Assembly (NCBI GenBank): GCA_003222895.1
Contig: QHXI01000055.1
Coordinates: 1-52,726 of the forward strand
Direction of reading: 5' to 3'
Length of the DNA: 52,726 nucleotides
Source of the DNA: Acidobacteriota bacterium
Lineage (GTDB): Bacteria; Acidobacteriota; Blastocatellia; Pyrinomonadales; Pyrinomonadaceae
Of this stretch, positions 16,518 through 25,477 are shown piece after piece (position 1 is the first letter of the stretch; every line of letters begins with the position of its first letter). The notes beneath the pieces were generated by a model. The model saw only the letters and a program-made list of their open reading frames with translations, searched no databases and was not told the DNA's origin. The position numbers and the translations under genes were made by a program.

Positions 16518-17223
16518 TTTAAGAATTCTTCTTTGGGATCTCGACGGCACCCTCGTGCGGGGCAAGCGCTTTGGAACTTTCAAGGATTACACCGTGCCGA
16601 TGTTGGAATCGGTGTTTGGAACCGCGGGCTCGCTGCGCGAAATGATCGTCTCCGGGATGACCGATCTGCAGATTGTCGAAGAGGCGCTTCGTTGTGACGG
16701 CATCACGCGCGAACATATCAGCGCGCGCAAAGATCAGTTGCGAGAATCGTATATCCGCGAAATGAAACATGCCGTCGGCAATGGGGCTCATGTTATCGAG
16801 GCAATCCCCGGCGCCCACCAGACTCTCGAACGTTTGCAGGAACATTCGCGATATCGATCCGCTCTGCTCACGGGTAATATCGAGCCGGCCGCACACTTCA
16901 AGGTTGAGGTGGCAGGTCTAACAAAATATTTCACTTTGCCCGGAGCGTTCGGCGACGAATCATTCGATCGTCGCGACTTGCCGGCTATCGCGGCGAAACG
17001 AATCAACGATCAGCTCGGCGCCAAACTTTCTCCGGAGCAATTTATCGTCATCGGCGACACGCCTAACGACATCGCCTGCGCGCGACACTTCGGTGCGCGG
17101 GTTGTGGCGGTCGCGACCGGGCGCGTTCATTCCGCCGATCAGTTGCGCGAATGTGAACCTGACGCCCTGCTGCCTGATTTGCTGAATGTGGAGTTGGTGA
17201 TCGAGACGCTGGATGCGTTGTAG
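16507..17223 (+). CDS. HAD-superfamily hydrolase (phosphatase)
   Basis: 238 residues. HAD motifs are all visible: motif I LLWDLDGTLVRG, motif II ALLTGNIE, the motif III lysine near IAAKRIND, and motif IV FIVIGDTPNDIACARHFGA. The overall arrangement with a helical cap between motifs I and II is that of phosphoglycolate-phosphatase/beta-phosphoglucomutase-like subfamily I proteins; the substrate cannot be assigned. Its ATG lies in the repeat array. Confidence 0.85.
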   Translation: MNHSLRILLWDLDGTLVRGKRFGTFKDYTVPMLESVFGTAGSLREMIVSGMTDLQIVEEALRCDGITREHISARKDQLRESYIREMKHAVGNGAHVIEAIPGAHQTLERLQEHSRYRSALLTGNIEPAAHFKVEVAGLTKYFTLPGAFGDESFDRRDLPAIAAKRINDQLGAKLSPEQFIVIGDTPNDIACARHFGARVVAVATGRVHSADQLRECEPDALLPDLLNVELVIETLDAL

Positions 17224-17235
17224 GGTCGGTCGGGT

Positions 17236-17265
17236 TTGAAGTTCCGCCACGCTGCAGCATAATAA
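17236..17265 (+). promoter_or_regulatory. Possible promoter for the thioredoxin-like selenoprotein gene
   Basis: TTGAAG, 18-base spacer, TAATAA, 43 bases before the ATG at 17309. Confidence 0.4.
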
Positions 17266-17308
17266 AAACAACCCTCGTAACACTGTAGACTCTTGAAAGG
17301 AGTTGACT

Positions 17309-17875
17309 ATGCTCGTCAACTGGTTACGTGATGCCGACGAGGCGCTCGCGCAAGCGAAAGCCGAAAACAAACCTCTGCTGATCGATTTCTCCGCTGCCCC
17401 GGCCTGAGGCGCATGTGCTCAGCTGGAAGCTGAGTCTTACTCTGACCGGGAAATCGCGGATTTCATTCACCAGAATTTCGTCCCGCTCGAAGCCCACATC
17501 AAAGAACATCCGGCGTACTTCAAACGATTCGAAGCCGTTTGGACGCCTACGATTCTGGTGCTGGATTCATCGGGGACGGAACGCTATCGCATCGAAGGTT
17601 ACCTGCCGAAGAATTGGTTTCGCGCGCGTCTTGAGATGGGACTGGCCCGCGTCGCGTTGATGCACAAGAAATTTACTGAAGCTGAAGCGGCTTATGCTGC
17701 TGTGATCGCGCGGCGCGGCGATACGGGCGTTGGGCCCGAAGCGATCTATTGGCGCGGCGTGTGTCATTACAAGGCGACGAACGATCACACTGTGCTGGGC
17801 GAAGTCGCGAAAGAGCTGGCTGAGAAATTTCCGGGCGATGAGTGGACGTTGAAGAGCGTGCCGTGGGCTCATTGA
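17309..17875 (+). CDS. Thioredoxin-fold protein with in-frame TGA, probable selenoprotein (UxxC)
   Basis: One reading frame runs from an ATG with a strong AAAGGAG ribosome-binding site to a TGA at 17873, interrupted only by TGA at 17405-17407 (codon 33). The context is LLIDFSAAPA-TGA-GACAQLE, so TGA stands where the first Cys of a thioredoxin CxxC would be, giving UGAC. The frame then continues with a normal thioredoxin fold: FVPLEAHIKEHPAYFKRF, VWTPTILVLDSSG (cis-Pro) and ERYRIEGYLP, followed by a helical TPR-like C-terminal part (AEAAYAAVIARRGDT...GPEAIYWRGVCHYKAT). Total 188 residues. A stem-loop of SECIS type follows the TGA. Alternative: pseudogene by a Cys-to-stop mutation or a sequence error; the conserved downstream frame and the hairpin argue against it. 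Confidence 0.75.
17405..17435 (+). promoter_or_regulatory. Candidate bacterial SECIS element
   Basis: After the TGA at 17405-17407 come 10 bases and then a stem CTCAGC / GCTGAG (17418-17423 and 17429-17434, extendable by a G-T pair) closing a 5-base loop TGGAA with G at loop position 2. The loop starts 17 bases after the TGA. This fits the published model for bacterial SECIS: an apical loop about 16-37 bases downstream with a G in the first two loop positions. Confidence 0.6.
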
Positions 17876-17894
17876 TCTGTAAGTGAGTTAAAAA

Positions 17895-17980
17895 ATAGCC
17901 ACAGCTTCACACCGATCGACACAGATAGGAAAAGAACTGCGCGGATTCTTATCTGTGAAGATCTGTGTTCATCTGTGGCT
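17895..17980. repeat. CACAGAT-type intergenic inverted repeat
   Basis: Left arm AGCCACAGCTTCACACCGAT then GACACAGATAGG; right arm CTTATCTGTGAAGATCTGTG then TTCATCTGTGGCTGC. The arms are complementary and form an imperfect hairpin. A second copy of this family is at 25382-25477. Confidence 0.75.
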
Positions 17981-17985
17981 GCTTT

Positions 17986-19998
17986 CTAAATTCGATGGAA
18001 ACCCTTCAAGATATCCTGTGTCGCGAGACGCAGGATCACGGGGCGCCCATGCGGACAAGTCGTTGGTGAAGAAGTCAGCAGCAGTCGATCGATCAGCCAA
18101 CGCATTTTCTCAGGCGCGAGCGGCATGTTGACTTTGATTGCCGCGTGACACGCGAGGGACGCGGCAATTTCATCACGCAAAGTGGCCCGCGCCGCGCCTC
18201 GTTTTTCATTGTCGACCGTGTCCAAAACTTCCGACAAAACATTCCGCGCTTCGCTCGCCGGTAGATCCGCGGGAGTTGACTTAATCGCGACGGTTCGGCC
18301 TGACAATCGCATCAATTCAAAACCATAAGCTTCGAGTTCTTCAGCGACTGCGTCGAAGGCCGCGGCTTGCGCGGGCGTGAGATCGAAAGTTTCCGGAATC
18401 AACATCTGTTGAGATTCAGATTTTCGCGACGCTTCCAATGCGCGATACTTATCAAACAAAACGCGTTCGTGCGCCACGTGCTGATCGATTAGCAGCAGGC
18501 CTTCGTCATCGGTCGCGATGATGAAACTTTCGTCGAGCTGGCCCAGCGGACGAATGTTTGCCGACAACGATTCGACTGCAACTTCACGCACGAATTTGAG
18601 TGCTGAGTCGAGCGGTGGCAAATCGGGAAACGCCTTTACGTCGCTTTCGGTTCTCGATAACTCGATCGCGCTGAAGATTTCTTCTGACTGAATTTGCGAG
18701 GGCGCGGAGGCGACGGACACGGCTTCGGGCGAAACGGTTTGCGGTAGCGAATCGATTGATGGACGATCCGGCGCCATTGGCCCTTCGGCCCGGGCAGTCG
18801 CAAACGCAATCCGTTCCTGCTGCGGCGCCGGCCGCAATTCGAATCCTGTCGGCCGCGTTTCGATCGGGCTTTCAGGAGGTTGTACCAGTGCTACTTTAGG
18901 GTCTGCTGCCGCCGCATCTGCGCCCACCTCGTCGGCCACTGCACGCCTGTCGCGAATGTCAGCCGCGGGCGCATAACCCGCACTCGCCAATCCCGCGCGC
19001 ACCGCTTCGCGGACAGCATCGGCAACCGCGGCCGCGCGTCGAAATCGCACTTCAGTTTTCGCCGGGTGAACATTGACGTCGACTTCTTCGAGAGGCACAT
19101 CGATGAAGAGCAGCGCGATCGGATAGACGCCGTGCGGCAGGATCGAGCGATAGCCTTCCGACAACGCGCGACCAATCAAGCGATCGCGAACAAAGCGTCC
19201 ATTGACGAAAAGATATTGCGCATCGCGCGAAGTGCGACGCTCACGCGGAGCGGAAACAAAGCCCCGGACCTTTGCGATCTGCGGCAAAGAAAAACTCGTT
19301 TCCGTCGGCTCGCTGATCGCGTTGTTGACTTCCAATAGACTATCGAGAAACTGCGCCCCGAAAATTTGATAAGCGCGCTCGCGTAAGTCTTTCGCCGGCG
19401 CCACGCGAAGGGTTTCGCGTCCATTGTTCGTGAGCGTGAAAGCGATTTCGGGATGAGCCAACGCATAATGCGTAACGAGATTAGTCAGGTGATAACTCTC
19501 AGTAGCTTCGGATCGCAGGAACTTTCGTCGCGCCGGCGTGTTGAAGAAAAGATCGCGCACGGCGATGGTCGTGCCGCGCGGATGCGGGGCGTCTTTCACA
19601 TCGCGCATGCGACCGCCTTCGATGACGACGCGTGTTGCGGCTGAGGCATCGTCTGTGCGGGTGACGAGTTCGACTCGCGCGACTGAGGCAATTGAAGCCA
19701 GCGCCTCACCGCGAAAACCGAGCGTGCCAATCGCATTCAAGTCTTCCGCCTTACTTATCTTCGAAGTTGCGTGACGTTCAAAAGCCAAGACTCCGTCGTC
19801 ACGACTCATGCCTTCGCCGTCATCCGTGATCTTCAGTAGACGCCGCCCACCCGACTCAACATCGATGACGATTCGCGTAGCGCCGGCATCGACTGCGTTT
19901 TCCACCAGCTCCTTCGCGACAGACGCTGGGCGCTCAACTACTTCGCCGGCGGCAATCAAGTTTGAAATGTGATCGGGGAGAACTCTTATCTTGGACAT
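17986..19998 (-). CDS. mutL: DNA mismatch repair protein MutL
   Basis: 670 residues. The N-terminal GHKL ATPase shows ENAVDAGATRIVIDVE, DDGEGM and GFRGEALASIASVARVE; an acidic/proline linker (residues about 345-460) separates it from the C-terminal dimerisation domain. The C-terminal domain has DQHVAHERVLFDKY, ACHAAIK and CPHGRPV, the metal-binding set of endonuclease-type MutL, with small departures (Val for Ala and Asp for Glu in the DQHA(x)2E(x)4E motif). Strand incision by MutL itself would fit an organism without MutH. The stop lies beside a CACAGAT repeat. Confidence 0.95.
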   Translation of the reverse strand: MSKIRVLPDHISNLIAAGEVVERPASVAKELVENAVDAGATRIVIDVESGGRRLLKITDDGEGMSRDDGVLAFERHATSKISKAEDLNAIGTLGFRGEALASIASVARVELVTRTDDASAATRVVIEGGRMRDVKDAPHPRGTTIAVRDLFFNTPARRKFLRSEATESYHLTNLVTHYALAHPEIAFTLTNNGRETLRVAPAKDLRERAYQIFGAQFLDSLLEVNNAISEPTETSFSLPQIAKVRGFVSAPRERRTSRDAQYLFVNGRFVRDRLIGRALSEGYRSILPHGVYPIALLFIDVPLEEVDVNVHPAKTEVRFRRAAAVADAVREAVRAGLASAGYAPAADIRDRRAVADEVGADAAAADPKVALVQPPESPIETRPTGFELRPAPQQERIAFATARAEGPMAPDRPSIDSLPQTVSPEAVSVASAPSQIQSEEIFSAIELSRTESDVKAFPDLPPLDSALKFVREVAVESLSANIRPLGQLDESFIIATDDEGLLLIDQHVAHERVLFDKYRALEASRKSESQQMLIPETFDLTPAQAAAFDAVAEELEAYGFELMRLSGRTVAIKSTPADLPASEARNVLSEVLDTVDNEKRGAARATLRDEIAASLACHAAIKVNMPLAPEKMRWLIDRLLLTSSPTTCPHGRPVILRLATQDILKGFHRI

Positions 19999-25381: not shown

Positions 25382-25477
25382 GCCACAGATGAACACAGAT
25401 GACACAGATAGAAATCATCCGGTAGCGCGTCAGTTATTTATTTTCTGATCTGCGTAATCCGTGTTTATCTGTGGCTG
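25382..25477. repeat. CACAGAT-type intergenic inverted repeat
   Basis: Left arm CCACAGATGAACACAGATGA and on to CACAGATAG; right arm CCGTGTTTATCTGTGGCTG. Same family as 17895-17980. It lies between the small and large subunit genes, so a transcript would have a hairpin in the middle of the operon. Confidence 0.75.

Follow-up and report, generated by a model that had tools for sequence, protein, structure and literature searches.

Does the in-frame TGA in the reading frame at 17309-17875 end translation, or is it decoded? The window (the whole 52,726-nt stretch analysed here) contains at this locus one gene of 188 codons, whose sole in-frame TGA before the terminal stop is codon 33. Translation would start at an ATG at 17309, with a GGAG that ends 6 nt upstream of it; codons for Gly-Ala-Cys directly follow the TGA, and the terminal stop is itself a TGA (17873-17875). 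An earlier note, made from the letters alone, had described such a frame, with a ribosome-binding site and a break only at codon 33, and each of these elements was present on direct reading. The same note had predicted that gene callers would truncate the product, and the plain list of open reading frames indeed reports 105 residues from 17558 and no more for this region. The features discussed below are collected in Table 1.

Table 1. Predicted features of the locus, with the basis of each assignment
Feature	Coordinates	Strand	Basis or remark
Predicted selenoprotein gene (188 residues and a stop; Sec33)	17309..17875	+	Frame read directly; 53 further TGA homologues
In-frame TGA, putatively read as selenocysteine (U of U-G-A-C)	17405..17407	+	Cys at this position in L017 and L113
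Cys36 of the UxxC site, presumed to be the resolving Cys	17414..17416	+	Invariant in 45/45 aligned rows
SECIS-like hairpin, 6-bp stem CTCAGC/GCTGAG, loop TGGAA	17418..17434	+	17417-17435 with loop U-A and outer G-U paired
Thioredoxin-like domain (Pfam Thioredoxin_2, residues 16-108)	17354..17632	+	Includes Pro80 (17546-17548), the presumed cis-Pro
Helical C-terminal half (about residues 111-187) of TPR-like helix pairs	17639..17869	+	AlphaFold2 model; TPR matches in relatives

A TGA stands at the same place in 54 distinct genes, that is, in 53 besides the window gene. This total comprises a first set of 43, L112 (the same gene as L129, which lay outside the set of 43 and was added afterwards) and ten from a later search; it includes two pairs of near copies, L101/L102 and L134/L135. 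A filter on the later search skipped five of 11 loci (L125, L130, L131, L134 and L135), which were recovered and tested afterwards. Among the family matches listed for 97 close genomes, nine have a single TGA, the window's own counted, and one genome (G008) has the Cys form. When 162 genomes of the class were searched with a profile, 20 matches were obtained at E ≤ 1e-18: 18 with TGA, one with Cys (L017) and one C-terminal fragment. An even draw of 396 genomes from the phylum, in which up to eight candidates per genome were scored, gave 49 matches at the same threshold. Of these, 26 are nearly full-length with respect to the profile; L113 among them has Cys and the other 25 have TGA. The remaining matches are partial and mostly cover the thioredoxin half, with CxxC sites in those that were read (L115-L118). 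In a further class, 12 of 148 genomes contributed 14 matches at E ≤ 1e-25, 13 of them with TGA, and ten of these 13 were new. A C-terminal fragment, L093, was left out of the counts.

Weak matches with a TGA were also seen, one in G093 and four in the phylum draw (G457, G433, G294 and G509). L020, which has one TGA and appeared in the first listing, was dropped because its TGA lies well 3' of a complete WCAPC site. When contigs were scanned with two short family peptide patterns, all named records obtained (14/14) belonged to Acidobacteriota; tblastn against plasmids gave no family match at 1e-15. Damage through frameshifts, decay or assembly faults is apparent in three of the 54 members: L016 ends early, L078 (5998-6612) departs from the family at about residue 117, and L125 has a TAG 33 codons 3' of the TGA. 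Family members in the genomes searched are predicted to be mostly of the Sec form, with a patchy distribution through Acidobacteriota.

Identity to the window protein falls to 27% among the TGA relatives. Six positions are invariant in the 45-row alignment: W5, P31, U/C33, C36, P80 and G97. P80 belongs to the VWTPT motif, which the earlier note had pointed out as a thioredoxin feature and which is present. The site reads TCVGC in L017 and HCKGC in L113, against U in the 54 genes, which places the TGA at the position of the first redox Cys of a thioredoxin-like site. Unrelated residues at this position in homologues had been named as an argument against Sec; what was found instead is TGA in the 53 other genes and Cys in both full-length relatives without TGA. 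In a tree of the family, 35 Sec rows form one group with support of 99/98. Deeper joins are not resolved by the tree, and both full-length Cys rows sit there on long branches. Purifying selection persists 3' of the TGA. For six same-genus pairs, dN is 0.15-0.20 and dS 1.0-2.0, with dN/dS after the TGA of about 0.09-0.17, and coding conservation 3' of the UGA is also visible in the family alignments.

Selenocysteine insertion depends on dedicated genes, and the earlier note had suggested looking for them in the rest of the genome. The source genome is a draft of 4.77 Mb in 167 contigs, 96% complete, and selA, selB, selC and selD were all found in it. The tRNA-Sec (selC) has anticodon TCA and scores 67 bits against an Rfam cut-off of 47, while the scores for selB, selA and selD are 365.6 bits (cut-off 242), 540.7 bits (cut-off 268) and 357.5 bits (cut-off 125), respectively. 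Because the Rfam model for tRNA-Sec also matches tRNA-Ser, we left unused the observation that 94 of 97 genomes exceed its cut-off. The selD of the source genome (L120 1498-1600, G000:C34) has an in-frame TGA of its own, in MVSCSGUAAK, which makes it a Sec-type SelD, and a SECIS-type hairpin lies 3' of that TGA. It thus represents a second clear Sec gene in this genome.

We compared the form of the gene with the machinery in 40 family-bearing genomes (10 + 30). SelB exceeds its cut-off in 37 of them and tRNA-Sec is matched at E ≤ 1e-9 in 35. For the set of 30, the corresponding fractions are 27/30 and 25/30; the other ten, which come from the close-genome and class searches, all have both. One tRNA-Sec match counted among the 35, that of G342, is doubtful (84 nt, 55 bits) and may be a tRNA-Ser. 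Three genomes (G148, G324 and G185) have selB and no tRNA-Sec match, and G154 has tRNA-Sec and no selB match at 1e-40. Four tRNA-Sec matches are seen in G154 (contigs C6, C11 and C15), of which two share a contig at a distance of about 2 kb. The earlier expectation that relatives in genomes without Sec machinery would have Cys holds in part. G448 (99% complete), with neither a selB nor a tRNA-Sec match, carries the Cys form L113, but G379 (90% complete, 950 contigs), where neither exceeds its cut-off, has the TGA form. G379 gives no tRNA-Sec match at E ≤ 1e-9, and its only selB-type match (209.4 bits, below cut-off, with one TAA) is like EF-Tu matches in size and score. The other Cys form, L017, sits in a genome with both selB and tRNA-Sec. 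One caveat here is that several of the exceptional assemblies are fragmented or incomplete, which is no proof that gaps explain the missing genes.

A bacterial SECIS element, in the available part of PMC13188914, is limited to a stem of 4-16 bp, a loop of 3-9 nt with a G in its first two positions, a distance of 16-37 nt from the UGA, and an MFE of −7.5 or lower. Just 3' of the TGA in the window, CTCAGC (17418-17423) and GCTGAG (17429-17434) flank TGGAA (17424-17428), so the 6-bp stem and loop described in the earlier note are present, and the loop begins 16 nt after the TGA, at the exact lower bound of the distance range given in that part of PMC13188914. The hairpin folds at −10.3 kcal/mol, either with eight pairs and the loop GGA at 17 nt or, with the inner U-A open, with the loop UGGAA at 16 nt. 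A bulge-free scan places it within the limits given above, and it surpasses both a codon-preserving null and mock sites.

The same comparisons were made for the relatives. An energy of −7.5 kcal/mol or lower is reached at 34 of the 43 TGA sites, compared to 317 of 4873 mock sites (6.5%) in the same genes, the mock sites overlapping each other; the other nine hairpins lie between −5.2 and −7.2 kcal/mol. Tested against 1000 synonymous recodings per region, 31/43 give p ≤ 0.05 (window p = 0.011) and 12/43 fail, L101 and L102 wholly so (p about 0.5). Among the ten later genes, 9/10 reach −7.5 and 8/10 beat the synonymous null, and the L112/L129 hairpin has an energy of −8.0 with p = 0.121. For all 54 genes, 44 reach −7.5 kcal/mol and 39 beat the synonymous null at p ≤ 0.05. 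Dinucleotide shuffling gave a different picture for the window: the 48-nt fold is ordinary (z 0.49; equalled or bettered by 128/200 shuffles), and that of 71 nt is weakly unusual (z −1.95; 6/200 shuffles). Because the shuffle left the 48-nt hairpin region within chance, the synonymous-codon null and mock positions were used instead, and the window hairpin is distinct only against the codon-preserving null, against mock positions and between relatives. The Cys relatives L017 and L113 have no such hairpin (−3.6 in one, none in the other).

The hairpin occurs in three registers, which differ by subgroup. Register A, with a CUCGGC or CUCAGC stem and the loop UGGAA 16 nt after the UGA, is found in 31 rows (30 distinct). 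Two rows have AU in place of GC at one of its pairs, and one row has UA in place of CG at another; one pair is broken in 4/30 distinct rows and one in a single row. CGG has become CAG (Arg to Gln) in both the window and G001, alongside a silent switch of GCC to GCT that preserves the base pair. Register B has a GGAUGC-type stem with the loop CGUGAC or GGUYUC 23 nt after the UGA, and is found in 14 distant rows (8 at first); double changes from AU to GC occur in four rows, and one pair appears as GU, AU or GC. In register C, seen in 4/6 genes of one genus (g8), the stem is shifted and the loop lies 18 nt after the UGA. As these register C rows are nested in the main tree group, the hairpin has moved at least once within that group. 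Registers were assigned by eye from the hairpin itself, so the 97-100% of paired cells arise partly by construction, which does not apply to the double changes. Two genomes have two family copies each, L127 and L135 in G571 and L128 and L134 in G569; in both, one copy has the hairpin in register A and the other in register B, and all four copies have the TGA. The putative element behaves as a SECIS.

How else might the TGA be explained? If it were a true stop, the locus would be a pseudogene, or would encode a 32-residue peptide and an internally started 105-residue protein. The plain list of open reading frames yields exactly such a split, and L016, L078 and L125 look broken elsewhere in the gene. 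Nonetheless, we consider a true stop very improbable, as the TGA is kept at this codon in 54 distinct genes, selection is purifying on either side of it, the thioredoxin domain begins 5' of it and ends 3' of it, and both full-length relatives without TGA have Cys. Insertion of another amino acid, such as Trp or Cys, through a reassigned code or leaky readthrough would likewise keep the frame open. This too seems highly unlikely, given that TGA serves as the terminal stop of the window gene and of two of the three genus mates, that tRNA-Sec, selA, selB and selD are in the genome, that the replacement residue is Cys, and that homologues conserve a hairpin at the spacing of a SECIS, with none found in the two Cys forms. 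The draft state of the source genome, with its 167 contigs, might suggest a sequencing or assembly error for TGC or TGT, but the chance of this is negligible with TGA in 53 other genes at identities down to 27%. Taken together, the sel genes, the TGA in the other genes, the Cys replacement and the SECIS-like hairpin support the proposal of the earlier note that the codon specifies Sec, and 17309-17875 is almost certainly a bacterial selenoprotein gene, encoding a thioredoxin-like protein with Sec at residue 33.

What kind of protein would this be? The window protein matches Pfam Thioredoxin_2 with 51 bits (cut-off 27), as well as Thioredoxin_7 and the start of Thioredox_DsbH, and its score of 22.4 bits for the classical thioredoxin model (PF00085) falls short of the cut-off of 23.5. 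TPR_6 and TPR_16 each match 5/10 members, and the TPR_16 score of the window protein is 21.8, below the cut-off of 32.7. The window protein itself stays below the cut-off of every NCBIfam model; the best scores are with known selenoprotein families (41.2 of 805 bits for TsoB, 40.5 of 275 bits for VPGUxxT), and the Trx7/PDZ (seleno)protein model NF041199 gives 23.1 bits against a cut-off of 300. An AlphaFold2 model (14 sequences; mean pLDDT 92.1) has a thioredoxin fold to about residue 110 and helices at 101-118, 122-136, 142-157 and 161-173, with a short end. The nearest solved folds, with Z of 15-16, are a putative disulphide isomerase (2kuc, 16.2), DsbH (2ju5, 15.4) and the gamma domain of DsbD (1vrs/2fwh, about 15). 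The gene product is thus predicted to be a thioredoxin-fold oxidoreductase with a UxxC site and a presumed cis-Pro. By eye, no signal peptide or membrane helix was seen in the window protein.

From these features, and from what is known of thioredoxin chemistry, we infer how the protein may be made, where it resides and how it may work. SelB with Sec-tRNA(Sec) would bind the hairpin just 3' of the UGA, and the ribosome would put selenocysteine at residue 33. The product would be small, with the predicted thioredoxin fold, and probably cytosolic. The Sec33 selenolate of U-G-A-C would attack a disulphide or oxidised thiol, Cys36 would resolve the intermediate, and a cellular reductant would then reduce the selenenylsulphide. 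Docking of a substrate or partner is the probable role of the C-terminal helix pairs.

Gene neighbourhood offers no help on function, since neighbours are shared only within the genus. When 13 loci were compared, several neighbours of the window gene were shared by just two, both of the window's genus, where a presumed HAD hydrolase lies upstream and a presumed mutL downstream (both named by eye). The other 11 loci, some of them on short contigs, share nothing with the window but the gene itself. An Rfam scan of 17200-18000 gave no matches at E ≤ 1, a terminator scan gave none, a promoter scan gave one site with 0.4 expected, and PHROGs gave one weak match of unknown function. A strong imperfect inverted repeat (17888-17989) separates the selenoprotein gene from the convergent one taken for mutL, with 44-nt arms that are 77% complementary and a fold z of −5.4. 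Its core, ATCTGTGTTCATCTGTGGC, is found twice more near 25.4 kb (25382-25475) with up to three mismatches, compared to none expected by shuffling, and the recurrence of this core makes the repeat look like a REP-type element.

On balance, we lean towards a broader reading, in which the window gene belongs to a phylum-wide group of mostly Sec-using, cytosolic thioredoxin/helical-repeat reductases that lies outside the curated models tested, and in which the position of the SECIS hairpin along the coding sequence has changed. The hairpin series would then run from CUCRGC[UGGAA]GCYGAG at 16 nt in most of the main clade, through a shifted stem at 18 nt in some members of one genus, to GGRURC[CGUGAC]GYAYCC at 23 nt in distant members. 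If this is true, the SECIS can change its position without any shift of the protein site, and the gene would be a widespread user of selenium among soil bacteria. Gene callers would cut its product short, as the plain list does here. One protein site with hairpins in three registers provides a natural series on what SelB needs from a SECIS. The gene also adds a candidate selenoprotein family for Acidobacteriota, a phylum with few entries in the available parts of the catalogues. The 2006 census lists three families and four genes for Acidobacteriota (available part of PMC1794560), and an Acidobacteriota test genome of 2025 had three known and no new selenoprotein genes (available part of PMC12013277).

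CnoX/YbbN is a thioredoxin-TPR chaperedoxin, a folding helper. Could the protein, with Sec inserted, be a helper of this kind rather than a general thiol reductase? The order of a thioredoxin domain followed by TPR-like helices is common to both, and E. coli YbbN (3qou) and the Salmonella structure 3qdn are among the Foldseek matches. These matches are weak, and the superpositions poor (rmsd 11.4 and 10.4, TM 0.43 and 0.44 on the query, respectively); moreover, the helical part of the window protein is shorter, its UxxC site contains Sec, and the loci compared have no gene neighbourhood in common outside the genus. We therefore regard a chaperedoxin role as rather unlikely and retain the reading as a thiol reductase.

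Other known systems resemble the window protein in part. The PF13098 UxxC thiol:disulfide interchange protein in the available part of PMC13188914 (Table 1 of that source) combines a Thioredoxin_2 domain with UxxC, as does the window protein; the two are set side by side by domain and motif only, not by sequence. In the 2006 census, this selenoprotein is given for two Geobacter species and one further organism (available part of PMC1794560). Residues 3-61 of the window protein align to the N-terminal thioredoxin part of the VPGUxxT family (NF041383/NF041382), and some distant members read APGU, SPGU or VPGU, like VPGUxxT. However, the match to NF041383 covers 59/287 model positions, and the window family keeps Cys as UxxC. 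The DsbD gamma domain occupies Foldseek ranks 1-2 (Z about 15), and the end of the TsoB profile (NF045694) aligns to residues 3-108; unlike DsbD and TsoB, the window protein is without membrane or N-terminal domains, and its C-terminus is helical. Thioredox_DsbH/DUF255 (PF03190) matches with 41.5 bits (cut-off 27) over 66/163 profile positions, and a relative in the same genome has 39% identity to residues 3-69. That relative, a 696-codon frame, is far longer than the window gene and has no stop within the match.

More than 110 prokaryotic selenoprotein families have been catalogued, with 119 families and subfamilies covered, according to the available part of PMC13188914, and a thioredoxin domain joined to a helical half has no match among the families described in the available part of its section 7. 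The family was not found in the publications searched; entries of PMC13188914 known by description, such as 'Redoxin family protein' and PF13098, may hide a relative. Set against these systems, the sequence argues for a family that is new but of a known kind, predicted to be a cytosolic, Sec-containing thioredoxin-like reductase with a C-terminal helical-repeat half.
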